Shown: positions 39,347 through 64,000 of the stretch, in pieces | How the letters are laid out: each line of letters opens with the position of its first letter | Numbering within the stretch: the stretch's first letter is position 1 | Source: Terribacillus sp. DMT04 | GTDB lineage: Bacteria > Bacillota > Bacilli > Bacillales > Amphibacillaceae | NCBI RefSeq assembly: GCF_019056395.1 | Contig: NZ_CP077640.1 | Location: 1-64,000 of the forward strand | Direction of reading: 5' to 3' | Length of the DNA: 64,000 nt | Notes under the pieces: generated by a model | The model's input: the letters and a program-made list of their open reading frames with translations, nothing else | Databases searched by the model: none | Told to the model about the DNA's origin: nothing | Position numbers and translations under genes: made by a program

Positions 39347-41371
39347 CTAGAATTGCACATATTTTGCAGGATCTAATTTACCAGACTTGGTGGAATTCCA
39401 TGCTGGCGAATGTAGTTCAAAATGTAGATGCATTCCTGTCGATTGTCCAGTGTTACCCATGTAACCTATAAACTGTCCTTTTTTTACATTAGCTCCTGCT
39501 GATACCTTCCTCGAAGCTAGGTGAGCATATAGAGTTTCATACTGTTTTCCTTCTATATTGTGCCGGATGATAATTGTATTTCCGTATGAACTTGAAAGAT
39601 ATGACTTAACAACTACGCCATCTGCAGATGCCACTACTTGTACATTTGATCTACCGCCGCCACCAATATCTATCCCATTGTGGTAAGTTCCCCAACGAGG
39701 ACCAAAAGTAGAAGTGATATCACCTGTTGCCGGCCTCATAAAGGTTCCAGAGGTTACTTGTGGTACATCTCCACCACCATTAGGGGTGTAAGTTGCTTGT
39801 GATTTGAATTTATTAGCGTTTTTAAGAACTTTATCGACATACCAGTTAGCATGATTGTAATTGTAGATAGCTCCTCTTTGATCGGTTGCATAATTACTTC
39901 CCGCCAAGTAATTGGCAGCAGTATGTATTGCATCTTCAATCTGCCAAGGATCAGCCTTTCCATCACCATTACCATCTACACCATATCCGCCGCCAGCTTT
40001 AATTACACTTAAACTGGTTATGTCTGTACCCGCGCTCACAAGACCGCCACCTATATTATATTTCCAACCGACCCATGTTGCAGGCATGAACTGGAGATGC
40101 CCAACAGCTCCGACTGAAGATACCATAGTGGGATGTGTACTAAACCCTGTCTCAACAAAGTGAATGGCAGCTAGAGTATACCAATCTACACCGTATTTCT
40201 TTTCTGCAGCAAGATATATAGGCATGTACTCTGCTGGGACTCCTTCTCCTGGAACAATTGTCCCGTCGTAAGATATCCCGGAACCAAAACCAGCGCTAGT
40301 ATCTGATTCGAGCCATTCTAAGTAGCTAATATCAAATCCTTGAAATTCATAGTTAGCTGAGATCAGACGCTTATCATTAATCCCTAACCCATATGAATTT
40401 AAGATACTATCAAAGTTTGAGTAATCATGAGTCGTGGTTTCTGTGGTATTAAAGCGCTGTTTTCTAGTCATCGTTGTGGTTTTTACTGTTATATCGCGGA
40501 CTTTTTCAACTGGAACCCTTTCTTCTACAGTTTCCTTTACAACTTTGTGCTTAGTAACATACTCTTCTTTCCAAGTCCCGTCTTTTTGCTGAACATATTC
40601 TTTTTCTCTATAGGGCACTTTCGTTGAAACCGTCTTAGTAACAGTCTCATACTCGATATATTCTTCTTGCTCTGTCTTATATACAACATCACTCTTCCAA
40701 TCAGTAATATAATCATCATGGTCAAAGTGAGTTCCACCTTCCCAATGCTCTACACCGGTTAACTTAGTAACCCATTTGTCTTCCCTATCTACATCACTCC
40801 ATTTTTCGCACTTGTCATTTCTACAGACTTGTGTCTTACTTTCTGACCATTCATTATATTCATTGTAAGAGAACGAAGGAGCTAAACTTTCCGTAAACTT
40901 GTTTACAAGCTCGTAATAATCTTCTCCTGCCATTCCATCAATTTGGATTACTGCGGATAGTAACTCAATAGGCAATTTATAAGGTGCCTGTAAAGGATCA
41001 GACATATCAACTGTCTCTTCTGTTTTCTGAACCATATATTCATGGAGATCCTTTTCTTCAGAATTTAAACTGTCTCCAGAACCGAGGAAGAATGATAGAG
41101 AAAGAGAAACAACTATTACCAAGAATATAACTATTACAACTACAATGAGTGCCGGAGCACCAATTGTCCCTAAGAAAGTCAATAGCATTTTCGCTAGTAC
41201 TAGAGCTCCTTTCTTTATTGCTTTAGCTGCTAATTTAGCGAGTTTTTTTGCAATTTTTTTTGCAACTTTTTTTCCTGCTTTTTTTGCCTTACCCTTTGCG
41301 TATCCTTTTGCTAAATCTATAGCGCCTGAATTCTGTTCTGAATTCTTATCTTGTTTAACAGGAAGAACCAT
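39347..41371 (-). CDS. Bifunctional peptidoglycan hydrolase of the transfer apparatus (SLT + M23)
   Basis: A 674-aa protein; its ATG overlaps the TAA of the VirB6-like gene (TAATG) with GGAGGAGCC upstream. A basic Lys/Ala-rich N terminus precedes a membrane helix (APALIVVVIVIFLVIVVSLS). The middle has a long polar region. A lytic transglycosylase domain follows (YMPIYLAAEKKYGVDWYTLA, with VETGFS and GAVGHLQFMPATW), and a C-terminal LytM/M23 domain (HNGIDIGG, HLHFELHSPAW with metal-binding His). Such VirB1/CwlT-like enzymes open the cell wall for the transfer channel. Both catalytic domains look intact. Confidence 0.88.
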   Translation of the reverse strand: MVLPVKQDKNSEQNSGAIDLAKGYAKGKAKKAGKKVAKKIAKKLAKLAAKAIKKGALVLAKMLLTFLGTIGAPALIVVVIVIFLVIVVSLSLSFFLGSGDSLNSEEKDLHEYMVQKTEETVDMSDPLQAPYKLPIELLSAVIQIDGMAGEDYYELVNKFTESLAPSFSYNEYNEWSESKTQVCRNDKCEKWSDVDREDKWVTKLTGVEHWEGGTHFDHDDYITDWKSDVVYKTEQEEYIEYETVTKTVSTKVPYREKEYVQQKDGTWKEEYVTKHKVVKETVEERVPVEKVRDITVKTTTMTRKQRFNTTETTTHDYSNFDSILNSYGLGINDKRLISANYEFQGFDISYLEWLESDTSAGFGSGISYDGTIVPGEGVPAEYMPIYLAAEKKYGVDWYTLAAIHFVETGFSTHPTMVSSVGAVGHLQFMPATWVGWKYNIGGGLVSAGTDITSLSVIKAGGGYGVDGNGDGKADPWQIEDAIHTAANYLAGSNYATDQRGAIYNYNHANWYVDKVLKNANKFKSQATYTPNGGGDVPQVTSGTFMRPATGDITSTFGPRWGTYHNGIDIGGGGRSNVQVVASADGVVVKSYLSSSYGNTIIIRHNIEGKQYETLYAHLASRKVSAGANVKKGQFIGYMGNTGQSTGMHLHFELHSPAWNSTKSGKLDPAKYVQF

Positions 41372-44300
41372 TAGATGGCTCCTCCCATACTTTGATGACG
41401 CAATGTTTCATAATCCCTTCTTTTCTGTAATCGATTGTTCACTACAGGAGGAAGAAGTTCTTCCGGTTTTATAAGGTCTTCTGGTCTTGCTGAAGTAAAG
41501 TATTTTTGACTGGAAGCATTTAAATCCCTGACCAGCCTCTTATTTTCAACTGAATAGTTTATTTGTACAGTTTCATCAGCATCTAATCTTCCATCGCCTT
41601 TACCATAAGGTGATACTCTAAATTCTTGGCCACTATTATCCTTGGCGACCATATAGCTTCTGCCCTTAGATACGACCATACGAATGTCTTTAGTGTTTTG
41701 CACAACATCAGCATAAGAAAGTTCACCGCTATCGACTTGCTGATTAATCGCAGGTACTTCTTGGAAGGATGGTTGCTTACTAGAATTCGTACCTGCTCTG
41801 TTTGCTAACAAGCTTGCAGGCTTGACGTTAATTGGTCTCCCTGTTTCTATTCTGCCACCAGTACTATCCAATTTATATGGAGTAGAATCATGTACAAGAG
41901 CTCCATTAGAAACATTAAGGTCTTGATATACGACTTCACCTTTCTTAAGTGAACTATCTCCTGAACCATAACGAGATACTACTTGTTTCTGACCATGTAT
42001 ATCCTTAACTTGAACAAATGATTTGTTACCTGTTGTGACTAGTTGTACTGCACCCTTCGCAATTTCTTTATTGCCGCTAGGTGTTTGGGTTTTCTGGGCC
42101 ATATGTTCAACCTCAGATACTTCCATTACTTTCTGATTAACATCTGCATTATAAGGGTTTGTACGAACTCCTAGTTTACTTGCGGCTTGGTAGCCTCTAA
42201 CACCACCTACAACACCACCTACAAAGGAAACTGCATTTGTATAATTTGCTTGTCTTTGTTGAAGGTTTTGCGGAATATGAGTGTTACCAATTTCCGTCTT
42301 AGCAGCGGCTATCCCACCACTTATTCCATTCGAAACAGCTGAAAACGTGTTAGTAATTGGACTTGTAGCCAAATTAGGATTGTTTACAGCCTCTTGATAA
42401 GCTAAGCCAGCGCCTTGTATGCCCGATGATACGACCTTCCCTAGCTTTGTATCCTTGGCAAAAGTCGCCATATCTTTCACACCAGTTGCAGCTCCGACAC
42501 CACTAAGTACCCCTGAACCGATGGCTGCGGCACCATTAATTGCCTTAACATTACTGAAAGCACCATTAATCGGTATTTGAGAAGGTATTTGTTGTGATAC
42601 TTCTTTAAGGTTCTGCTTATATGCATTTGGCTCTTGTGCTTGCCAGGCTTGTTCAGCAGCTTCTGTTGTGACTCCCTGCTTCTCTTGTTGCTTGATAAAA
42701 CTAGCCTTAGCTTCACCAGTTTTAATTGAAGCCATTTGAGAAGCTAAGTAATCTGTGTTTACTTGATTTCCAGAATATAAGGTTCCTGATTTAACAGAAT
42801 CAGCTGCTCCTCTAGCCATTTGGAAATAACCACGAGAAGATCCATTATGTTCTTTGAAAGCAATTTCAACATCCTCCTCGGATGCACCTGGATTACTTGC
42901 CTTATAATTCTTTTTGAATTCTGCTTGATCAGCATTAAATACCTCTTCACTAACGCCGTTAGCAAAATTGTTCTTGTCAATTAATGAGGAGTTTCCTAGA
43001 TTTGCACTTGTCATGTTAGCCGCCACGGAGGTTGCCATAGATTTAATGCTTCCGGATTTGGCTGTAACAGCATTATTCCATGCAGCATCTCTTTGTTGTG
43101 TGCGTGTAGCCTTCTCTTGTTCTGTCATATTCTCTGTGATAGGATTTTCCCTATCGTAATTGTCCATGAATGCTTGTTTATTATTAGCCGCCCAGTTATT
43201 AGTCAACTTGGCCGTAGTTGCATTTACCAGATCGTCGGCATTTGCCACTTTTGACTGTCTAGCAATGTTCTTACCGGCAGTAAGACCACTTACAGCTGCT
43301 AAAGCGACCTGTGCATAAGAAGACTTATCGCCATTTATTGATTGGAATGCCTCTTCTGCTTGCTCATCTGTTGCAGCAGGGTTATTTTTCATAAACCTGT
43401 CTTTAAATTCACTCTTATTCATGTCTGATACTTGATCACTTACCGCTTTAGCGTAATCCGATTTGTTAATAAAAGCTTGTTCAGCGGGTAGGCCGTTACT
43501 CATTTGACCAGCAGTTGATTTCGAAATGCCTGCTATCTGTTCACGTTTATTTGCAACAGCATTATTCCACTCAAGTTCCTTTTTCTCTTCCCTATCTGCT
43601 AGATCTTTCGAAGACATTCCAGGAACTACAGGATTATTCTTATCGAAATCTTCTGCAAACTGTTCTCTATTCTTACTTGCCCAGTCCTGGCTTAATTGAT
43701 CAGTGGTAGCTGCAGAAAGAGAATTAGCATTAGCATATTTACCATCATTTGCTCTAATCTTACCAACTTGTTCTCTTGCACTAGCTAGATGTTCTGCTTT
43801 TTTCTCACCCAGTTTTTCATCCCAGCGCTGATTTAGACTAGACTCATGAGAATCCGGAAACTTTTCTTTCAGGTCATTCATAAATTGTTCTTTATTAGCA
43901 TTTGCCCATTTAGTAGTATCATTTTCTGCTATTGCTTCAGCAAGCTGTTCGTCCGACTTGGAGGGATCCATTTTGTCCTTAGCGGTTTGCAGACCCTCTT
44001 GCCATCCTTTTTTCAACCTAGAGCCAACGGCCATAGCGCCAGCTGCCCCTGATCTACCTACAAGGCCCCCGGCAAGACCACCCGCTTCATACCCAATTGT
44101 AGAACCCAAGATACTACCTGAAGGTCCCATGGTAGAACCAGCAATGGAACCAGCCGCTCCAAATACTGCTTTACCACCGCGGGACATCAAATCTCCTGCT
44201 TTGAGCATTTTTTCAGCTCTGGTAGTACTTCCAGAATCGGTTCCAGTGTTTGCTGCAAGAGTACTAGGATCTGTTTCTCCATTTTCGCCTTTAGACTTAC

Positions 44301-45234
44301 CAATCTTATCTTTTGCACCTTGATATGCACCTTTTAATGCACCAGTTACAGATTTACCTTCTAAAGCTCCTTTGGTTGCTCCATACATTCCTGCAAGACC
44401 AGACATACCAAACATTGCTCCAGCTTTACTCATAGCTGAGTTCATGCCGCCACCTAATCCTAATAATGAACGTAGGGACTCCGAAACAGGGATAAAGATT
44501 ACATACAATATTATTGTTTCTAGACCGTTATTGGCTGCAGCCAGTAACGCAATAATCCAGTACAAAGCAGCATGTATAGACTGCACAAACACTGTTCCTA
44601 CAAACTCCGAAAACCATGCCATTGTCATTTTTTTCGTTTGTGGTATTAAATATAGTACAACCATTAAGGGTCCAATTATCATAAAGATGATAAGTGTAAG
44701 CTTTCGCATCATATAGTAGAAATTCGCCCAAATACTAAGGCCAATCAAACATAAACCAATAATGATTTGTCCTATTATATCTTCCCCAGCCTCAACACTT
44801 TCTTTTACTTTCATTATTTCTTCGTTGCTACCGCCACCAGAGAACAATTCAACTATAGTATAGTTAACACCAAATATTATCATGTATATTGTTGATAGAT
44901 TAAAGAACACGATTCCTACAACCGCTAGGTCCTTCATAAATTCAATCGCATAGGTACGATTTGAAGGGTTGATACCAGAAGATGATATTTTCATGCCTCC
45001 AAGTGCTATTGCAATAAGTAATGCGCTAACAGCAAGAACGACAAACATATTCATACCGGGGGTGTAAATGTTTGTCAATTCTTCCTCTTTAAAGATGCCA
45101 AATGCTAGATCCACATCACCATCTCTTCCGTAAATTAAACCTTTAATGGTACGTAGCTCTAAGAACGGTGCGATGGTCCAAGTGTACATAGTGGCAAAAA
45201 GACTTTTAAAAATATCTACAATCCCATCAAGCAC
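41371..45234 (-). CDS. Very large VirB6/TrbL-like channel protein
   Basis: A 1287-aa protein from GTG, one base after the VirB4 stop. The first ~290 residues carry about seven hydrophobic segments (for example NMFVVLAVSALLIAIALGGM and ITLIIFMIIGPLMVV-like), as in VirB6/TrbL. A Gly/Ala/Met-rich stretch follows (MSKAGAMFGMSGLAGMYGAT), then about 500 residues of charged repeats with the motif W-A-x-x-N-(K/R)-(E/Q)-x-F and D-x-x-W-(N)-x-A-V at roughly 130-residue intervals. The C terminus is mixed. It should form the inner-membrane channel of the secretion system with an unusually long soluble extension. Confidence 0.8.
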   Translation of the reverse strand: MLDGIVDIFKSLFATMYTWTIAPFLELRTIKGLIYGRDGDVDLAFGIFKEEELTNIYTPGMNMFVVLAVSALLIAIALGGMKISSSGINPSNRTYAIEFMKDLAVVGIVFFNLSTIYMIIFGVNYTIVELFSGGGSNEEIMKVKESVEAGEDIIGQIIIGLCLIGLSIWANFYYMMRKLTLIIFMIIGPLMVVLYLIPQTKKMTMAWFSEFVGTVFVQSIHAALYWIIALLAAANNGLETIILYVIFIPVSESLRSLLGLGGGMNSAMSKAGAMFGMSGLAGMYGATKGALEGKSVTGALKGAYQGAKDKIGKSKGENGETDPSTLAANTGTDSGSTTRAEKMLKAGDLMSRGGKAVFGAAGSIAGSTMGPSGSILGSTIGYEAGGLAGGLVGRSGAAGAMAVGSRLKKGWQEGLQTAKDKMDPSKSDEQLAEAIAENDTTKWANANKEQFMNDLKEKFPDSHESSLNQRWDEKLGEKKAEHLASAREQVGKIRANDGKYANANSLSAATTDQLSQDWASKNREQFAEDFDKNNPVVPGMSSKDLADREEKKELEWNNAVANKREQIAGISKSTAGQMSNGLPAEQAFINKSDYAKAVSDQVSDMNKSEFKDRFMKNNPAATDEQAEEAFQSINGDKSSYAQVALAAVSGLTAGKNIARQSKVANADDLVNATTAKLTNNWAANNKQAFMDNYDRENPITENMTEQEKATRTQQRDAAWNNAVTAKSGSIKSMATSVAANMTSANLGNSSLIDKNNFANGVSEEVFNADQAEFKKNYKASNPGASEEDVEIAFKEHNGSSRGYFQMARGAADSVKSGTLYSGNQVNTDYLASQMASIKTGEAKASFIKQQEKQGVTTEAAEQAWQAQEPNAYKQNLKEVSQQIPSQIPINGAFSNVKAINGAAAIGSGVLSGVGAATGVKDMATFAKDTKLGKVVSSGIQGAGLAYQEAVNNPNLATSPITNTFSAVSNGISGGIAAAKTEIGNTHIPQNLQQRQANYTNAVSFVGGVVGGVRGYQAASKLGVRTNPYNADVNQKVMEVSEVEHMAQKTQTPSGNKEIAKGAVQLVTTGNKSFVQVKDIHGQKQVVSRYGSGDSSLKKGEVVYQDLNVSNGALVHDSTPYKLDSTGGRIETGRPINVKPASLLANRAGTNSSKQPSFQEVPAINQQVDSGELSYADVVQNTKDIRMVVSKGRSYMVAKDNSGQEFRVSPYGKGDGRLDADETVQINYSVENKRLVRDLNASSQKYFTSARPEDLIKPEELLPPVVNNRLQKRRDYETLRHQSMGGAI

Positions 45235-45235
45235 T

Positions 45236-47329
45236 TTACATCACCTGACCATTCCTGGAATTAAGTTTTCTTCTTTTTTTCAATAACTGCTCGAGAACGG
45301 CTGTATTCGACTCAATAAATGTCAGCTCTTCTTCACTTGGATTAGTCTTCAGCCACACCGAACTTTTTCCACTTCTTAAAATACCTTCACCCTTGTCCGG
45401 ATTACCAAAGAGTATTCCAATCTCTCCATCACTTAGGTCGAAATTCTCTTTAACTTTTTCGAGATCAATTTTGTTCTGTTGCATGAACAAAATTGTGAAT
45501 GTAGAGGAAAGTATACCCCTTGCTTTTGGGTTTTCTAAGATCCGAACAAAATCCTGAGTTGCCCAGCATAATCCACAGTTCCTCTTCCGGGCGCGCCTTG
45601 CAACTTTCTCAAAGAACGAAACCGTTTGTTCATTATCAATAAACTGCCAAAGTTCATCCGCGTATATGTATTTCTTCTTCGTAGCATTTTCACTGTTCTT
45701 GGCAAAGTACTCCCAAAGATAGTTTAGAATTACATGGTAAGCGATTGGACGTAAGAATCCTTCTTCCATCTGGCTAATGTTAAAGTTGATTAATCTAGAC
45801 GTGTTTAATGTCTGTGTTACACCTTTACCAAGATACGTTTGACCATCGAAAATTGGTTTTGACCCTGTACGTAGGAAAGGACGAATAGCAGCAATGAGCC
45901 GCCCTGCTTTCCTATCTTTAGCGTACTTAGTAGTAAGGTAGTTATAAACATCTGATATGGTAGGTTCAGGCTTTCTAACCTTTGACTGTGTAAGAATACC
46001 GTCAATCTCTTTAACATCATCTGTGTATAGAGAAGCAGGGTGAGATGTAATTTCTAATTGCTCTTCGAATACATATTTAATGGATTCTTCAAGAAAGTTT
46101 CTTTCAAAAACATCTAATCCACCTTCTTCTCCATTCTTACCGCGAACGATAATATCAAAAAAGCTTAGAATTTCATTCTGTTTCTCTCGCAAAGGTACAA
46201 AACGAATAAAGGTCTTCTCGCCTTTTTGGACTATCTCCCGATCATCAGCTGTCTCCAACCAATCTAATTCTTCATCATCATCTTCCATCGGTATATCTGT
46301 AAAGTTAATTGAACATGGGTTAATACAAATATCTGCTTCTTCATTGACATTGAGGTTAATACCACCCAATCTTTTGGTTAGCATGGTAAATTCGCCTTCA
46401 GGATCGATGATTGTAGACCATACATTTGCTCCACTCATTTCTCTAGCAATTTTCAATTTCATTGCCAAAGATTTTCCGGAGCCTGGGATACCAGTTATAC
46501 CTACGTTATAGTTTTGGGGGCGGTCTTCTTCTGTTCCAAAACTGTTGATGAATTCAAGCTGATCAGTAATTTGATTTTTACCTAGCGGAACCCCGCCGTT
46601 GTATCTTCCACTCCCACTAATAAAAGGAGAGAAAGTAGAAAGTGCTCTTCTATCAACGTTTCTCATTGAGTCAGGAATCTCATTCTTACCTATAGGTAAA
46701 ACACTATAGAATCCTTTCTTTACTCGACTCCACGTAGTAGTCATTTTTATGAAATTGCCGGAGAGTTCATCTTCAAGTGTTTCACTATAGTTATTTAATT
46801 CTTTTTCACTATTGGCGTATAACACACCCATAGTTGAAACATAGAACAGATCATTCTCAGAGAATTGAATCTCTCCCATAAGAACATCAGTATCGTGCAT
46901 CTTTGTCTCTAAGTCCTTGATTTGGTCGATGTTGCCCCTTTTCATCTGGAATGAATAGTTGGACTGCAACATTGTCATTTGGATTTGTAGCATTCTCATC
47001 GCATCTGTTTTTGATATTTTGTGAATATCAAGCATTGTATCTGCCTCACCGCTTGATGTGATAGAATACAACCAGTTTGTTGCAAGTTTACGAGGATATC
47101 CATCTCGTGGTACATACCAAGGTCTAAAATAAGTTTTAGTACCCATTGATTGCTTGATGACACCATAGTCTTCTGCATTTATCGTCATTCCATCCGGAGC
47201 AATGATGTCCCATAAAGTCGGCTTCTGATCGACTTGGGTCTGTGTGTTCTCCTCAGTCGAGTTCTTTTTTTGTTTAGGATTAGCTTGCTTTGTCTTCTTC
47301 ATCACGTTCTTCTTCTGAAACAGCTTCAT
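45236..47329 (-). CDS. virB4: VirB4/TraE-family conjugation ATPase
   Basis: A 697-aa ATPase with AAGGAGGG before ATG; it overlaps the upstream gene by 50 bases. Walker A is GIPGSGKS (residues 280-287), the Walker B strand is KYIYADELWQFID, and FSRT-like helices (WATQDFVRIL) and the final DGEIGILF segment fit VirB4. It powers pilus/channel assembly and DNA transfer at the membrane. A VirB4 N-terminal-like protein is encoded immediately upstream, so the VirB4 function may be split between two proteins. Confidence 0.92.
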   Translation of the reverse strand: MKLFQKKNVMKKTKQANPKQKKNSTEENTQTQVDQKPTLWDIIAPDGMTINAEDYGVIKQSMGTKTYFRPWYVPRDGYPRKLATNWLYSITSSGEADTMLDIHKISKTDAMRMLQIQMTMLQSNYSFQMKRGNIDQIKDLETKMHDTDVLMGEIQFSENDLFYVSTMGVLYANSEKELNNYSETLEDELSGNFIKMTTTWSRVKKGFYSVLPIGKNEIPDSMRNVDRRALSTFSPFISGSGRYNGGVPLGKNQITDQLEFINSFGTEEDRPQNYNVGITGIPGSGKSLAMKLKIAREMSGANVWSTIIDPEGEFTMLTKRLGGINLNVNEEADICINPCSINFTDIPMEDDDEELDWLETADDREIVQKGEKTFIRFVPLREKQNEILSFFDIIVRGKNGEEGGLDVFERNFLEESIKYVFEEQLEITSHPASLYTDDVKEIDGILTQSKVRKPEPTISDVYNYLTTKYAKDRKAGRLIAAIRPFLRTGSKPIFDGQTYLGKGVTQTLNTSRLINFNISQMEEGFLRPIAYHVILNYLWEYFAKNSENATKKKYIYADELWQFIDNEQTVSFFEKVARRARKRNCGLCWATQDFVRILENPKARGILSSTFTILFMQQNKIDLEKVKENFDLSDGEIGILFGNPDKGEGILRSGKSSVWLKTNPSEEELTFIESNTAVLEQLLKKRRKLNSRNGQVM

Positions 47330-54042: not shown

Positions 54043-54201
54043 TTATGCTCTCTTCAACCGATCTAGAGGATGAATGTATTCAGCTTTCTTAGAGTAAACA
54101 AGAACACCAACGTTTTTATCGTCTTTTTTGTTTTTCGCTTCTTCAGGTGTAACAGCAGCACTATACAGTTTTTTTGGTTCAAACTTTTTAATTGTGCTCA
54201 T
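54043..54201 (-). CDS. 52-aa partner overlapping the TIR-like gene
   Basis: GGAGGTGGAG precedes ATG, which overlaps the TGA of the TIR-like gene (ATGA), so translation is coupled. The protein is basic (MSTIKKFEPKKLYSAAVTPE, then KAEYIHPLDRLKRA). Not recognised. A tightly coupled small partner of a TIR-like protein may be an inhibitor, sensor or assembly factor; this is inference from the overlap. Confidence 0.7.
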   Translation of the reverse strand: MSTIKKFEPKKLYSAAVTPEEAKNKKDDKNVGVLVYSKKAEYIHPLDRLKRA

Positions 54202-55205
54202 TGTTCTCCACCTCCACTTTCATTTAATAATCTCTGAACAATTGCAATTACATCATTATTGTAGTCTGTTAAACTGTCAAGATGTTCTTGGCTTAGTTCT
54301 TTACTTCCCGATATATGGACCGTCAAAACGAACTTCTTAGCTACATGATAGCATATTAGGTACGTCTTAGTAAGACCTGAGTCCTTATACAAAGTATATT
54401 TTTCTTTCTTATCCTTAAAGCATTCAATAACCATGATTTGACTTTGATAATCTACATCAAAATCATAGTGACCACCTATACCCACGTTACCTGCAACTTG
54501 AGAAATACCTTCTGGGCTTGCTTCCCAAATGCTTGTACCATCTAGGCTATAATGCATTTTCGTTAATTCATCAGGTATTTTATAGTTATGGTTAAACGAT
54601 GTAGAAAGTATATCCATCTTATCTTGCTCACCTTTAAATAACTTATCCGTTAAATGAGTATAAAACAATGTTGCTTTAATAAATGGATCAGTATCTGCTT
54701 TAATTCTTTCCAGCTCTTCCATAAGTTCCACTTCCGGCTTTTTTATCTTACCTAATTCAACAATTTTCTCATTTATATAACCGCAATGTTTTGATACTGC
54801 TGCTTTTATGTTATCGTCTTCTCTATTTTTATATGCCATTGTAGTTAGACCTGTAAAATCAGAAGGCAACTTATAATCACTTTCAGCAGTTGAATCTGGA
54901 TGTAAAAAGAATACTCGTTCCCTTCCAAGTTTGCCCCAAAACAATCCTAATTCAAACATTGAGTTATCACGAGTCTTTTTATAATTAACATTGCGCATGT
55001 TTACAATATCATCTGGAGATAATATAAACACTGCAAAATCATTAGTTTCTAACTGTTTCTCTAAGTCATCCATTGGATATTTCTGAAAATCAAAAGCACT
55101 ATTCCAAGGGGTCACTTCAGCTGTATGTTCCAGATGATCTTGTACTGCAGTCACATATTTTAAAGATTCCGCTGCAGAACCAATAAATACTCTAGGATTA
55201 TTCAT
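54198..55205 (-). CDS. TIR-like (PF10137/CAP12-type) nucleotide-binding protein
   Basis: A 335-aa protein with AGGAGGAACA before ATG. Residues 4-115 have the TIR-like pattern of predicted nucleotide-binding effectors: PRVFIGSAAESLKYVTAVQD, VTPWNSAFDF, FAVFILSPDD and DNSMFELGLFWGKLGRERVF. This domain is used as an NAD-cleaving effector in CBASS and Pycsar systems. The C-terminal half (about 190-325) is a separate beta-rich domain (HYDFDVDYQSQIMVIECFK) that may sense a ligand. The downstream 52-aa gene is translationally coupled. A cyclase-like protein is encoded 2.5 kb away on the other strand. Confidence 0.75.
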   Translation of the reverse strand: MNNPRVFIGSAAESLKYVTAVQDHLEHTAEVTPWNSAFDFQKYPMDDLEKQLETNDFAVFILSPDDIVNMRNVNYKKTRDNSMFELGLFWGKLGRERVFFLHPDSTAESDYKLPSDFTGLTTMAYKNREDDNIKAAVSKHCGYINEKIVELGKIKKPEVELMEELERIKADTDPFIKATLFYTHLTDKLFKGEQDKMDILSTSFNHNYKIPDELTKMHYSLDGTSIWEASPEGISQVAGNVGIGGHYDFDVDYQSQIMVIECFKDKKEKYTLYKDSGLTKTYLICYHVAKKFVLTVHISGSKELSQEHLDSLTDYNNDVIAIVQRLLNESGGGEQ

Positions 55206-58653: not shown

Positions 58654-59586
58654 ATGGGAGATAATTTAGACTTTGCAAGTATTGAACAGGAATTTAAAAA
58701 ACCATTTAAAGATGATGAACTGGGTTGGAGAGTATTAAACTCATTCAAAAGGAATAACAAAACGTATGTGAACTTAGCAGCATATGTAGATAGTAGAGCA
58801 ATTATGAAAAGACTAGATTCTATATTAGGTATTGATGGTTGGGAAGACATTTATGAAGAAATAAATGATGGTTTTAAATGTGGAATACGAATTTGGATTA
58901 CACAAGATCAATCCAGAATAAAATGGGATGGTGCTCCTCGTACTGATTTTGAATCAGTAAAAGGCGGTATGAGTAATGCATTCAAGCGTGCTGCAAACAA
59001 ATGGGGCATCGGTAGATACCTTTACGATGAAAGTCTCGTTTCTACCGAGCTACTTCCGCAAAGAGGTAATAATGGGGAATATAACTATTTCCAAGATAAA
59101 AAGAAAGACCTTAAAGGCTACTATAAAGTGCCTGTTAAATCACAAAAAGCTAAAGCACCAATAGAACCACCTGCTAGAGATGAAAGTGATCAAGAGTTAG
59201 AAAAGATATTTGAAGGCCTCAATGATTATGAATACAAATTAGGGTTATCAAACAAACCAAAGTTGAGCGTCAGGATCTTTAATAGAGCAAACAATATTAC
59301 AGAGAATTTGAATGTTAATCAAATTGATTACATTCATAATAAAGCTTCTAAAGCCGAACTGAAAAAATATTATTTAGCACTAAGACCGTTATACAACATC
59401 TGTATGGCTGCTAATAAATTTGAAACTAGCTTAGATGAAGTTCTTAAATATGCTCAAATTATCAAACCAGAAATAGAAGTAACTAACGTATTCTCACTTT
59501 TATTTCAACTTACCAATGATGAGGTTAAGCAGATATTTGAGATAGCTGAAACGGAGTATAACAACAATAAAAAGCATGCAATGTAA
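58654..59586 (+). CDS. Rad52/22-family single-strand annealing protein
   Basis: A 310-aa protein with AAAGGGTG before ATG. The N-terminal 180 residues fit the Rad52/22 family: FKDDELGWRVLNSFKRNNKT, AIMKRLDSILGIDGWEDIYE, then KGGMSNAFKRAANKWGIGRYLYDE-type segment. These proteins (phage Sak, plasmid homologues) anneal complementary single strands in recombination. The C-terminal ~130 residues are helical and unrecognised. First gene after the attenuated leader; it may aid post-transfer circularisation or repair of plasmid DNA. Confidence 0.82.
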   Translation: MGDNLDFASIEQEFKKPFKDDELGWRVLNSFKRNNKTYVNLAAYVDSRAIMKRLDSILGIDGWEDIYEEINDGFKCGIRIWITQDQSRIKWDGAPRTDFESVKGGMSNAFKRAANKWGIGRYLYDESLVSTELLPQRGNNGEYNYFQDKKKDLKGYYKVPVKSQKAKAPIEPPARDESDQELEKIFEGLNDYEYKLGLSNKPKLSVRIFNRANNITENLNVNQIDYIHNKASKAELKKYYLALRPLYNICMAANKFETSLDEVLKYAQIIKPEIEVTNVFSLLFQLTNDEVKQIFEIAETEYNNNKKHAM

Positions 59587-60837: not shown

Positions 60838-61182
60838 ATGAACAAATTTAATATAAGTTCATTCGAGGAGAACCTTAAGGAAAAGCATAAGAATTCTGGA
60901 CATTTATCTTGTAACAAAGGCTATATAACTGTCCTTGAAACTCTTTGGTACGGAAAAGACATTACAAGAATAGATTTCACAGCATTCACAGATTCTGATG
61001 TACAACTTGCACTCGACCATATATGGAGTATAGCAGGTGAGGCGTTGGATGATGGTGATGAAGCATTTGAAATTGATTGGTCCTCAGATTATATGACATA
61101 TGGAGCAATAGATAACGCTCTTACAGCGATAGCAATGAGTAAATTTAAACGATATCACAATGAAAATGATGATTTCATTTAG
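60838..61182 (+). CDS. Hypothetical protein in the PRTRC operon
   Basis: A 114-aa protein with GGAGG before ATG. It reads as an alpha/beta protein with an acidic C-terminal half (LDHIWSIAGEALDDGDEAFE, then SDYMTYGAIDNALTAIAMSK). No family recognised. Nine bases separate it from the next gene, which places it in the operon that leads to the E2-, JAMM- and E1-like genes. Confidence 0.65.
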   Translation: MNKFNISSFEENLKEKHKNSGHLSCNKGYITVLETLWYGKDITRIDFTAFTDSDVQLALDHIWSIAGEALDDGDEAFEIDWSSDYMTYGAIDNALTAIAMSKFKRYHNENDDFI

Positions 61183-61191
61183 GAGGATCAA

Positions 61192-61698
61192 ATGAGTGTT
61201 ATAGAATCGCAAGAAATTCACTCTTTAGAAGCGACACTATCCACGCTTTTAACAGCAAAGCTTTTTGTAGACGCCGGTGTAAATCCTGATGAGTTTCGAA
61301 CTAAGGATATATACGTGAATTTCTACAGAGGAGACACCAATGGTTATGAAATATTTATTGAAGGCCTAAATTTCTTATTCGAAGAGATTGAAGAATATGA
61401 TCCATACGATAATTCTAGAGAAGAGTTACTCGAAGTTGGAATCAGTGCAAATGGTCATGAAAAGTATCTGATATTAAAAGATAAGCTTTTTAATGGCTGT
61501 AAAACAATAGATTTATCTGAATACAAAAGAATAATAGATCAGGATAATCTCTTCTTTGATATGGGATTTGAATGGGCTTCTAAATGCGATGGTATTCTTA
61601 TAAGCCTTGATGGTATTGGATACTATCACTCATTAACCAGGGCTATTTTAAAGCTTAGAGATGATTTAAAAAATCGAAAAGAGGAAATTGTAGCATGA
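61192..61698 (+). CDS. Hypothetical protein in the PRTRC operon
   Basis: A 168-aa protein with AGGAGG before ATG; its stop overlaps the ATG of the next gene (ATGA). Acidic, mixed alpha/beta, with repeated FDMGFEWASKCDGILISLDG-type strands. It may correspond to one of the poorly conserved PRTRC proteins (D, E or F), but I see no diagnostic motif. Tight overlap with the PRTRC-B-like gene suggests a shared complex. Confidence 0.65.
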   Translation: MSVIESQEIHSLEATLSTLLTAKLFVDAGVNPDEFRTKDIYVNFYRGDTNGYEIFIEGLNFLFEEIEEYDPYDNSREELLEVGISANGHEKYLILKDKLFNGCKTIDLSEYKRIIDQDNLFFDMGFEWASKCDGILISLDGIGYYHSLTRAILKLRDDLKNRKEEIVA

Positions 61699-62399
61699 AA
61701 TTCACTATTGTAATAGATGATGACATCTCAAATTTTGATGATCATGTATTAATAACGCAGGAAGAAGAGAATGTGACAGTTGCTCAGTATACTATGTCTC
61801 TTTCTGATGTAAGTGCAGCCTTAAACAATTCAAGGGAAAGCTATACCTATATTGAGACTCCCCTTCTACCGAGTAATTGTTTGAAATATGAGAAGGTAGA
61901 TGGTTCCAGGGTAAATGGAGGCTTTGTTGAAAATGTCTTTGTTGAGATCCCAAAAGGCAATTTCAACATTACATTTGAAGACAAGGTTTACAAAATAGGA
62001 GTTCCCCGACTAATTATAAAATACTCTGTTGCTTCCAGCCGAGTATTTGAAATAGCGATTTTTGCATTAAAACAAGGTCAGAGAATCGAGGAAGATGGAG
62101 AATTGTTCTACTTCCCCTTTCCTAATGTAGCGCACGAATCTGGTGTGGCGTGTTTTGGTGCTAATACTCTACCTAAAGTTGAGAAAATAAGACATTTAGA
62201 AACATATCATTACCTTTTCTTCGCAGCCCCTTTTGGAGCGGATTATGGTACTAGAGTTCTAACAAATAAGACTATCCTTCAATTATTTGAAAGTCTGGAT
62301 AATGAGGAATTTAATGATGATTGGCTTATGCCGGCAACAACAAAAAAAATTGGTGACTTTATGAAAATAAACGATGAGGAGAATTTACAAAATGACTAA
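61695..62399 (+). CDS. PRTRC system protein B-like, predicted E2-like fold
   Basis: A 234-aa protein starting in an ATGA overlap. It matches the pattern I know for PRTRC protein B: LLPSNCLKYEKVD, then PRLIIKYSVASSRVFEIAIF, then GELFYFPFPNVAHESGVACF and GANTLPKVEKIRHLETY, with a Cys at the VACFG position and HYLFFAAPFGADYG near the end. This family has been grouped with predicted prokaryotic E2 (ubiquitin-conjugating-like) proteins. The next two genes encode the JAMM and E1-like partners. The Cys in VACFG (about residue 154) is the candidate catalytic residue. Confidence 0.75.
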   Translation: MKFTIVIDDDISNFDDHVLITQEEENVTVAQYTMSLSDVSAALNNSRESYTYIETPLLPSNCLKYEKVDGSRVNGGFVENVFVEIPKGNFNITFEDKVYKIGVPRLIIKYSVASSRVFEIAIFALKQGQRIEEDGELFYFPFPNVAHESGVACFGANTLPKVEKIRHLETYHYLFFAAPFGADYGTRVLTNKTILQLFESLDNEEFNDDWLMPATTKKIGDFMKINDEENLQND

Positions 62400-63330
62400 A
62401 AAACTTAATTCAGAGCAAACAGATATCTTTTCACTTTTTGATATGCCCGACGAGTATGCTGAGGAACAAAAGAAGCAAGCAGAAGAACGAAAAAAACAGC
62501 AGGATGAGAGATTAAAAACAACCAAAGAGGCTGCTAACAAAAAGGATAAGAAAGACGAATTCACGCTTAATACTGATACTAAAATATACTTTTACTCGGA
62601 ACTGATCGATGTTAATGAGTACTTTAGTATCGAGGAACTTACGAATGGAATTCCTAATACTACAAAAGCAGAAGAAGAACTCACTTATAAAAAACTAAGT
62701 GAAAGAGAGTTATTGAGTAGGCTAAAAAAAGACTATCCCGTATTAGATGTGAGTACAGGAGCGCAAGCAGTGTATATCAAAAGTAAAAACGCTGTTTCCA
62801 TAATACTTCAAGCTAAAAAGAAGGGTGGTCCTGCAGCTCCTACCCATGGATTAGTCAAAACAGATACCAAGATCCCTTATAGTATTTTGAGAGATTTCAT
62901 ATCTCTTGCAAAGAGAGTATATGACCTATATGGAACAGAGTTTCATGCAGATATATACCTGGATCATGAAACGAATGAATTCTTTTTAGATATTCCACAA
63001 CAAGAAGTAACAAGCGTTACAGTAGAAGTTATTGAAGATGAGCTAACTACCGCATTACGTTTCTTGGAGCGAAGATGTACCAAGTATATGGAGATACATT
63101 CACATCATGTTATGAGGCCAATACCGAGTGCATTAGATGATGCTAGTGAAAGAATACCCATCTACTATGCAATAGTTGGCCGCTTAGATTATTATTTGCC
63201 TCAAGTAACAGTGAGAACTTTTGATATAGAAAGAAATGAGCATGTCAGTTTTAGTCCATCTTTAGTTTTTGAAGATCCTTTCTATTATGCTAATCCACAA
63301 TATGATTTAAGTAAGGTGGAGAAAGTATGA
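62392..63330 (+). CDS. Ubiquitin-like segment fused to a JAMM/JAB isopeptidase domain
   Basis: The start at 62392 follows GGAGAATT; 312 aa. Residues 1-55 are a charged coiled segment. Residues 57-146 (TKIYFYSELIDVNEYF, LSERELLSRLKKDYPVLDVS, VSIILQAKKKGG) resemble PRTRC protein C, a predicted ubiquitin-like protein, and end in Gly145-Gly146. From about 157 a JAB domain follows (IPYSILRDFISLAKRVYDLY, EFHADIYLDHETNEFFLDIP) with an intact JAMM motif HSH-x7-S-x2-D (His236, His238, Ser246, Asp249). The zinc peptidase could cleave after the Gly-Gly to free the ubiquitin-like part; this is inference. Confidence 0.72.
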   Translation: MTKKLNSEQTDIFSLFDMPDEYAEEQKKQAEERKKQQDERLKTTKEAANKKDKKDEFTLNTDTKIYFYSELIDVNEYFSIEELTNGIPNTTKAEEELTYKKLSERELLSRLKKDYPVLDVSTGAQAVYIKSKNAVSIILQAKKKGGPAAPTHGLVKTDTKIPYSILRDFISLAKRVYDLYGTEFHADIYLDHETNEFFLDIPQQEVTSVTVEVIEDELTTALRFLERRCTKYMEIHSHHVMRPIPSALDDASERIPIYYAIVGRLDYYLPQVTVRTFDIERNEHVSFSPSLVFEDPFYYANPQYDLSKVEKV

Positions 63331-64000
63331 AGGAAATAAGTCTTCTCAAAGATTTCGGGCGATACAATACTGTTTATCCTTTCATATGTCAGATAGGAAC
63401 CGGTGCAACTGGTACACACTTAGTTCAGAACATTGCACAAATGCTATCAGGATTTAGAATGAGTTTTAATTACATTCTAGCTGATCCAGATGTAGTAGAA
63501 GATAAAAACCTAAAAAACCAATTGTTTATTAATAAGGACGTCGGCCAGACAAAGGCAAATGTCTTAGCCAAGAGATATAGCTCTGCATATGATATAGGGA
63601 TAAGTTCTTATTCTGATGGATATGTAGAAGATGTAAAAACGTTAAAAAGGCTGTTTAGTATAAATGAAAAATATGCTGATATTAACTATGGTACATTAAT
63701 CTTGCCTATACTTATAGGTAGTGTTGATAATAACTTCACCCGTAAGGTTATGCATGAGTTTTTTTATTCCGTACCTAGACTATTGTATATCGACGTTGGA
63801 AACGATTCAGTTAAGTTACCTAAAGATAAAGAACTAAGTAATATAGGTCATTGGACCGCGGATGAGAAGATAGAATATGATTCATCAGGTTGGGATGGAC
63901 AGGTGGTCTGCGGATTGAGATTTAATAATGATACTATCTTAGATCCGGTAGCTACTATTTTCCCTAACATCCTGGAAGAAGAGGATGAAATAGCGCCAAG
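63327..64000 (+). CDS. PRTRC-type ThiF/E1-like protein (cut by window end)
   Basis: Starts in an ATGA overlap with GGTGGAG upstream; 224 codons are visible and the frame is still open at the window edge. ThiF hallmarks: nucleotide loop ICQIGTGATGTHLVQ (G24-x-G-x-x-G29), YILADPDVVEDKNLKNQLF (acidic pair, then NLKNQ), DVGQTKANVLAKR, then the PRTRC-specific order LIGSVDNNFTRKVMHEFF, LLYIDVGND, GWDGQVVCGLR and PVATIFPNIL. It should adenylate the C terminus of a ubiquitin-like protein. The tail lies outside the window. Confidence 0.85.
   Translation, partial: MKEISLLKDFGRYNTVYPFICQIGTGATGTHLVQNIAQMLSGFRMSFNYILADPDVVEDKNLKNQLFINKDVGQTKANVLAKRYSSAYDIGISSYSDGYVEDVKTLKRLFSINEKYADINYGTLILPILIGSVDNNFTRKVMHEFFYSVPRLLYIDVGNDSVKLPKDKELSNIGHWTADEKIEYDSSGWDGQVVCGLRFNNDTILDPVATIFPNILEEEDEIAP

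Follow-up and report, generated by a model that had tools for sequence, protein, structure and literature searches.

The stretch of DNA analysed here (the window) comprises positions 1 to 64,000 of contig NZ_CP077640.1 of Terribacillus sp. DMT04, a plasmid-like contig of 115,498 bases in a two-contig genome (contig C2 below). Near its 3' end lies a gene in which a predicted ubiquitin-like domain is fused in front of a JAB/JAMM protease, within the gene order Rad52-like, DnaN, p1, p2, E2-like, fused gene, ThiF. A GAGGAG-like ribosome site precedes the start of the fused gene at 62392, and this start overlaps the 3' end of the E2-like gene. The layout of the fused gene is as follows:

62392..63330, + strand: fused gene (predicted ubiquitin-like domain and JAB/JAMM protease), 312 amino acids, an open frame with a ribosome site
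62392..62559, + strand: N-terminal leader, residues 1-56, charged and poorly conserved (variable in the alignment)
62560..62826, + strand: predicted ubiquitin-like domain, residues 57-145
62824..62826, + strand: Gly145, predicted C-terminus of the mature modifier (41/41 fused rows; the point at which the modifier gene stops in four of five split-gene relatives)
62827..62865, + strand: linker, residues 146-158, the first of which is the unconserved second Gly of the Gly-Gly pair
62866..63291, + strand: JAB/JAMM domain, about residues 159-300, with E183, H236, H238, S246 and D249

A preliminary description had placed a segment resembling the small PRTRC-C protein at residues 57-146 (62560-62829) of this 312-residue protein, ending in KKKGG, and both coordinates and sequence agree with this. 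In the AlphaFold2 model of the full-length protein, the leader is predicted as one long helix, with block means of the predicted local distance difference test (pLDDT) of 46-78, the domain itself is fairly well predicted, and pLDDT falls below 50 at residues 144-156, which cover the end of KKKGG.

Relatives of the fused protein were gathered in two ways. A tblastn search with the fused protein retrieved two phage records and 39 plasmid records, the latter all below 60% identity and mostly from Bacillales, with many of the weaker plasmid matches covering the JAB part alone and leaving the first domain uncovered. A scan of genome contigs found zero relatives with the single fused protein as query, and an alignment-based scan gave matches on 22 contigs. 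Matching genomes amounted to 15 of 397 in a sample of the order and 2 of 61 in a first relative set, the window's own genome being counted in each. By alignment, fusions were also found in Clostridia (L020, L044) and Rubrobacter (L021). The 41 fused rows referred to throughout are the window, L004, 16 plasmid records (drawn from 18 fetched tblastn records out of the 39 listed), 22 genome contigs and one phage contig, L022, which is cut at its 5' end; 34 of these rows, at <80% identity, form the non-redundant set. Kept outside this count were L018, in which domain and JAB are two neighbouring genes, L056, whose modifier is a gene of its own, L017 with its tandem copies, the viral contigs L046-L051 (JAB region alone), and loci L062-L067 and L069-L074.

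One position stands out in the alignment of these rows, the Gly at the end of the domain. G145, within KKKG, is present in 41/41 fused rows and 34/34 non-redundant rows, and it is the sole invariant column among window columns 57-160 in the non-redundant set, with K144 next at 32/34. The residue preceding it is nearly always Lys (38/41, with Asn in two rows and Arg in one), while the residue following it is Gly in just 2/41 and otherwise L (9), M (9), S (7), A (6), N (4), C (2), T (1) or I (1). In twelve further fused loci inspected by eye, some of them duplicates in sequence, the residue after K-G is never Gly. The preliminary description had proposed a modifier with a Gly-Gly C-terminus and had taken the conservation of this pair among homologues as a test. 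The conserved terminal Gly stands, but because the second Gly is not conserved, Gly-Gly is rejected as the conserved signal and is not borne out as the modifier end. A single Gly is likewise the end of PRTRC-C/Prok_Ub proteins.

When single fused proteins were compared with Pfam and NCBIfam by hmmscan, zero modifier families were retrieved, and profile-profile comparison was therefore used. The hhalign comparison of the domain profile with PRTRC-C gave a score of 29.3, as against 17.5 for the best of 200 shuffles, and reversed and other-family profiles served as further controls. This match, which bears out the resemblance to PRTRC-C first described, aligns the K-G terminus of one on the K-G terminus of the other; without the tail it still exceeds 200/200 shuffles, though spanning only 20 columns. 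The AlphaFold2 model of the domain has the order strand-strand-(insert)-helix-strand-strand, which fits a beta-grasp. Structural matches of the isolated domain were weak, however: Foldseek with the isolated domain returned nothing significant, and the domain profile, when PDB sequences were searched with it by hmmsearch, gave nothing better than weak matches to other proteins (best E 0.14). The beta-grasp fold suggested in the preliminary description is a possible reading of the predicted element order.

In the protease part, the Glu and the H-x-H-x7-S-x2-D residues (E183, H236, H238, S246, D249) are each present in 41/41 rows, and the domain has the JAB fold of the JAMM/MPN+ metalloproteases. 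A linker followed by a JAB domain with an intact HSH-x7-S-x2-D motif had been described before, and to this the upstream Glu (E183) can be added. The distance from the conserved Gly to the HSH is 91 residues in the window and 88-100 residues in 25/41 rows; in the other 16/41 it is 131-164 residues, reflecting a longer segment before the JAB domain. The presence of an extra alpha+beta domain (JAB-N) in this position was gauged by segment length alone, and the segment is short in the window's group. The model for PRTRC-A type JAB proteins, TIGR03735, matches the fused protein at E 0.013 (15 bits, against a cut-off of 101.8) and its fused relatives at up to E 2.3e-16, also below the cut-off.

Five relatives encode the domain and the JAB protease as adjacent separate genes, and in four of the five the modifier gene stops exactly after the Gly. 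In these four, L018 (Peribacillus asahii), L080 (Metabacillus), L081 (Cytobacillus) and G191 (L075, L079), the modifier gene ends in AKG followed by the stop codon, and the JAB gene comes immediately after. In L080 and L081 the modifier stop and the annotated JAB start share bases (ATGA), an overlap also present in the G191 sequence; in L018 the annotated JAB start lies a few bases past the stop. In the fifth relative, G111 (L078), the modifier gene is three residues longer (KGCSQ). A tree built from the JAB domains of 54 rows places L018 with the fused L013/L014/L045 at 95/94, and its supported branches require at least two changes for the split state. The four split rows besides L018 form one tree group and are not mutually independent. 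As judged from this tree, the gene would have been split twice at this one residue, or split once and later joined again. Such recurrence at one position would be difficult to account for if this Gly did not form the functional end of the modifier.

Some modifier/JAB/ThiF operons are interrupted or spaced by insertions. We observed this at G086:C2:155510-159211 (L072, L077), where about 2.8 kb separates the two parts of the JAB match, and at L018:6647-10520 and L006:3926-5737, where group II intron genes are annotated.

Modifiers of the same type also occur in tandem. Bacillus phage vB_BauM_KLEB27-3 (L017:2153-2860) encodes four near-identical tandem PRTRC-C-type copies with KAGVKG junctions, in a gene a few genes ahead of E2-like, JAB and ThiF genes; this protein matches Pfam Prok_Ub (four copies, E 5e-27) and NCBIfam PRTRC_C (E 8.8e-17). 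Bacillus velezensis plasmid pAD3 (L054:7629-8366) likewise has four tandem copies with KAGTKG junctions, and a Cytobacillus plasmid (L055:5989-6330) has two, the last ending KAGTKGF with one extra Phe. Eukaryotic polyubiquitin similarly has one extra residue after the last copy. In all three loci the JAB protein is separate and has no ubiquitin-like domain. Viral contigs scanned with this phage tandem protein as query contained no match. Among six separate PRTRC-C-type genes, those of L056 and L060 end at KG, that of L059 continues for five residues, and those of L057, L058 and L061 have long extensions. Given these extended and tandem K-G modifiers, processing of precursors after K-G looks common in the PRTRC-C family, and the JAMM fusion would be one form of it.

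The neighbours of the fused gene include candidate partners for such a modifier, together with replication and recombination genes:

61695..62399, + strand: E2-like protein (PRTRC-B / Prok-E2_D), with Cys153 at 62151-62153; PF14460 E 1.3e-10
63327..64000, continuing to 64169 of contig C2, + strand: E1-like ThiF protein, 280 amino acids; TIGR03736
59643..60779, + strand: DnaN sliding clamp; TIGR00663 E 2.9e-77
58654..59586, + strand: Rad52/Rad22-like protein; PF04098 E 1.7e-13
60838..61182, + strand: small operon gene p1, 114 amino acids; no family at E <= 1
61192..61698, + strand: operon gene p2, 168 amino acids; no NCBIfam match, and in Pfam DUF4026_N only, at E 0.22

The E2-like protein scores 41.7 bits against PF14460 (cut-off 25), which assigns it to family D, and it matches TIGR03737 at E 1.4e-8, below the cut-off of that model. 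Its Cys (Cys153 in the window) is kept in 22/22 rows. The part of the ThiF protein inside the window matches TIGR03736 at E 5.3e-12, scoring 45.6 bits where the curated cut-off is 144.75, and Pfam ThiF with 28.9 bits where it is 28.1, so that it can be called E1-like. Cys229 is kept in 20/20 ThiF rows and the glycine-rich nucleotide loop in 19/20, the exception being L012, which is probably annotated without its start. PADLOC matched ThiF alone, with weak E1-E2 matches, and left p1, p2, the E2-like protein and the fused protein without any. Neither p1 nor p2 matched the PRTRC families at E <= 1, while PRTRC-E, PRTRC-F and ParB had no dedicated search; similarly sized genes stand at equivalent positions in seven annotated plasmids. 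A search of the host genome for the domain gave no significant match besides the fused one, and hence no stand-alone PRTRC-C modifier gene; Prok_Ub and PRTRC_C as models gave nothing above cut-off there, though both also miss the fused domain. The fused domain is the sole candidate modifier seen for the E1 and E2. Directly after ThiF, on the minus strand, lies a two-frame transposase-like element, IS3-like by eye (L002:10229-11391, C2 about 64228-65390).

DnaN was detected in 28/39 and Rad52 in 21/39 of the fused plasmid, phage and contig loci, near-copies included in both counts. In some of the relatives with a long segment before JAB, clamp-loader genes lie near ThiF where the window's group has DnaN (dnaX in L013 and L014, delta prime in L013 and L015), and a 5'-3' exonuclease gene also occurs among the neighbours in this set (L013, L014, L015). 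The pairing with DnaN suggests testable targets among replication or recombination proteins. Elsewhere on the plasmid-like contig, the window encodes a CAP12/Pycsar-type TIR domain protein (54198-55205; PF10137 E 9.3e-28), a possible anti-phage effector, and transfer-like proteins (39347-47329), namely a TraG/AAA ATPase, one that weakly matches TrbL/VirB6, and an M23 peptidase that also carries transglycosylase domains. Beyond the window, a tubulin/FtsZ-like GTPase (L002:16971-18326, C2 about 70970-72325; PF00091 E 1.6e-8) lies beside a gene for 119 amino acids, and the two may form a tubulin-type plasmid partition pair.

The domain order, the invariant Gly, the catalytic-type residues, the gene order, and the split and tandem relatives are all there in the sequences themselves; the cleavage, activation, conjugation and removal set out below, and any target, are what we infer. 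We consider it likely that the fused gene encodes a precursor, in which residues 57-145 are the modifier of a plasmid E1-E2-modifier-JAMM cassette of the PRTRC / Iyer-6d kind, to be cut after Gly145, activated, conjugated and later removed by the JAMM protease. The JAMM domain, either its own in cis or that of another copy in trans, would cut after Gly145 to leave an end of KKKG. The ThiF protein would then adenylate Gly145 and probably form a thioester via Cys229, the modifier would be passed to Cys153 of the E2-like protein and joined to a target, and the same JAMM domain would eventually take it off again. The preliminary description had proposed a self-processing precursor. The idea of a precursor gains from the split-gene stops at the same Gly and from the tandem copies, but the end released would be a single Gly and not Gly-Gly, and cleavage in trans would look identical in sequence to cleavage in cis. 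A bolder version, in which self-cleavage in cis yields modifier and deconjugase at 1:1 and replication or recombination proteins of the plasmid itself receive the modifier (the DnaN clamp or the Rad52-like protein, whose genes lie just upstream), we regard as unlikely; if true, such a precursor marking DnaN/Rad52 would be a bacterial counterpart of the ubiquitin/SUMO marking of PCNA.

Three other explanations of the fused gene deserve consideration. The domain might never be released and instead be a permanent regulatory or docking part of the JAMM protease, for instance an occluder or a substrate guide. Some eukaryotic proteins, which we take to be those named NPL4, bear on this. These NPL4-type proteins keep an N-terminal ubiquitin-like (Ubl) domain together with an inactive JAB (PMC1949818; this and the other papers cited here are drawn on in excerpts, and what we say of them holds for those excerpts). 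The fusion in 41 of the relatives read and the fairly well-predicted domain of the full-length model likewise speak for a fixed domain. Against this, the JAB motif is intact here, unlike in NPL4, nothing in the domain except its terminal Gly is invariant, separately encoded modifiers of relatives end with that Gly, and the genome yielded no further modifier copy for the E1 and E2 to act on. We therefore doubt that the domain stays attached.

Were the domain released, it might still be a sulfur carrier with a ThiS/MoaD-like thiocarboxylate and not a protein modifier. An E1 of the ThiF type, with weaker matches to thiamine-pathway ThiF models, would suit such a role, as would the phosphoadenosine phosphosulfate reductase gene about 5 kb downstream in L016, a locus that also has redox genes, and the thioredoxin-family gene about 1 kb after ThiF in L012. 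Nevertheless, the dedicated E2-like protein with its conserved Cys and the frequent adjacency of DnaN make this distinctly improbable. We think it very improbable that the segment is not of ubiquitin-like fold and resembles PRTRC-C over a short length by chance, as shuffles, reversal and other families served as controls for that match, the predicted elements follow a beta-grasp order, and the operon otherwise shows no modifier.

The cassette to which all this is closest is that of the type 6d operons, described as comprising an E1, an E2-like protein, a small ubiquitin-like protein with a single Gly, and a JAB protein that carries a further domain at its N-terminus (Iyer 2006, PMC1779556). 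L058 and L059 share the order of E2-like, JAB and ThiF genes with the window, and the modifier of such cassettes, like that of the window, has a single conserved Gly at its end. Their modifier is encoded by a small gene of its own (PRTRC-C: L058, L059, L060), whereas here it is fused to the JAB domain, and the window's group has only a short extra segment ahead of JAB. Since no significant separate PRTRC-C gene was found and the fused domain has the same K-G end, we class the locus as a variant of the PRTRC / Iyer 6d cassette. Excerpts of the open-licence literature (including PMC1779556, PMC11354881, PMC5654768, PMC7159879, PMC3482391 and PMC1949818) contain no report of a modifier-JAMM fusion in a PRTRC cassette and no biochemistry of such a cassette. 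The predicted modifier-JAMM fusion is conserved and has a single-Gly end. The PRTRC cassette looks like a full bacterial E1-E2-modifier-JAMM set, and the fusion points to a single Gly as the end of the mature modifier and offers a cleavage assay in one protein.

Longer precursors cut by a JAB/JAMM protease have also been described elsewhere. BilC cuts BilA, a longer modifier precursor (review PMC11354881), and type 6e polyUbl operons encode tandem modifiers (Iyer 2006, PMC1779556). In these the modifiers are in tandem and the JAB is separate or fused to the E1, and the excerpts on BilABCD/polyUbl operons mention no modifier-JAMM fusion. In archaea, a JAMM protease (Rpn11) cuts pro-ubiquitin, and the E1 activates the cut or truncated form and not the full-length one (PMC5654768). 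Cleavage in Caldiarchaeum subterraneum thus exposes the Gly needed by the E1, as we propose here, but protease and pro-ubiquitin are separate genes there, the end is di-Gly and the propeptide has nine residues (PMC5654768). The lambda-type tail proteins I and K also pair a ubiquitin-like domain with a JAB, and in one Escherichia coli prophage a ubiquitin-like tail protein is fused to JAB, the only modifier-JAB fusion mentioned in the excerpts; the setting is a phage tail, with no E1 or E2 described there (Iyer 2006, PMC1779556). In NPL4, the N-terminal Ubl, zinc cluster and C-terminal JAB are likewise in one protein, but this JAB is inactive and the context differs (PMC1949818). For the FtsH-ternary conflict systems, a JAB has been proposed to free a Ubl from a multidomain EAD1-Ubl-E2 protein; in those systems the Ubl is fused to an E2 and not to a JAB, and the proposal is a prediction only (PMC7159879). 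Taken with the loci above, the fused, tandem and separate forms show that the same modifier is made in several ways, much as eukaryotes make ubiquitin.
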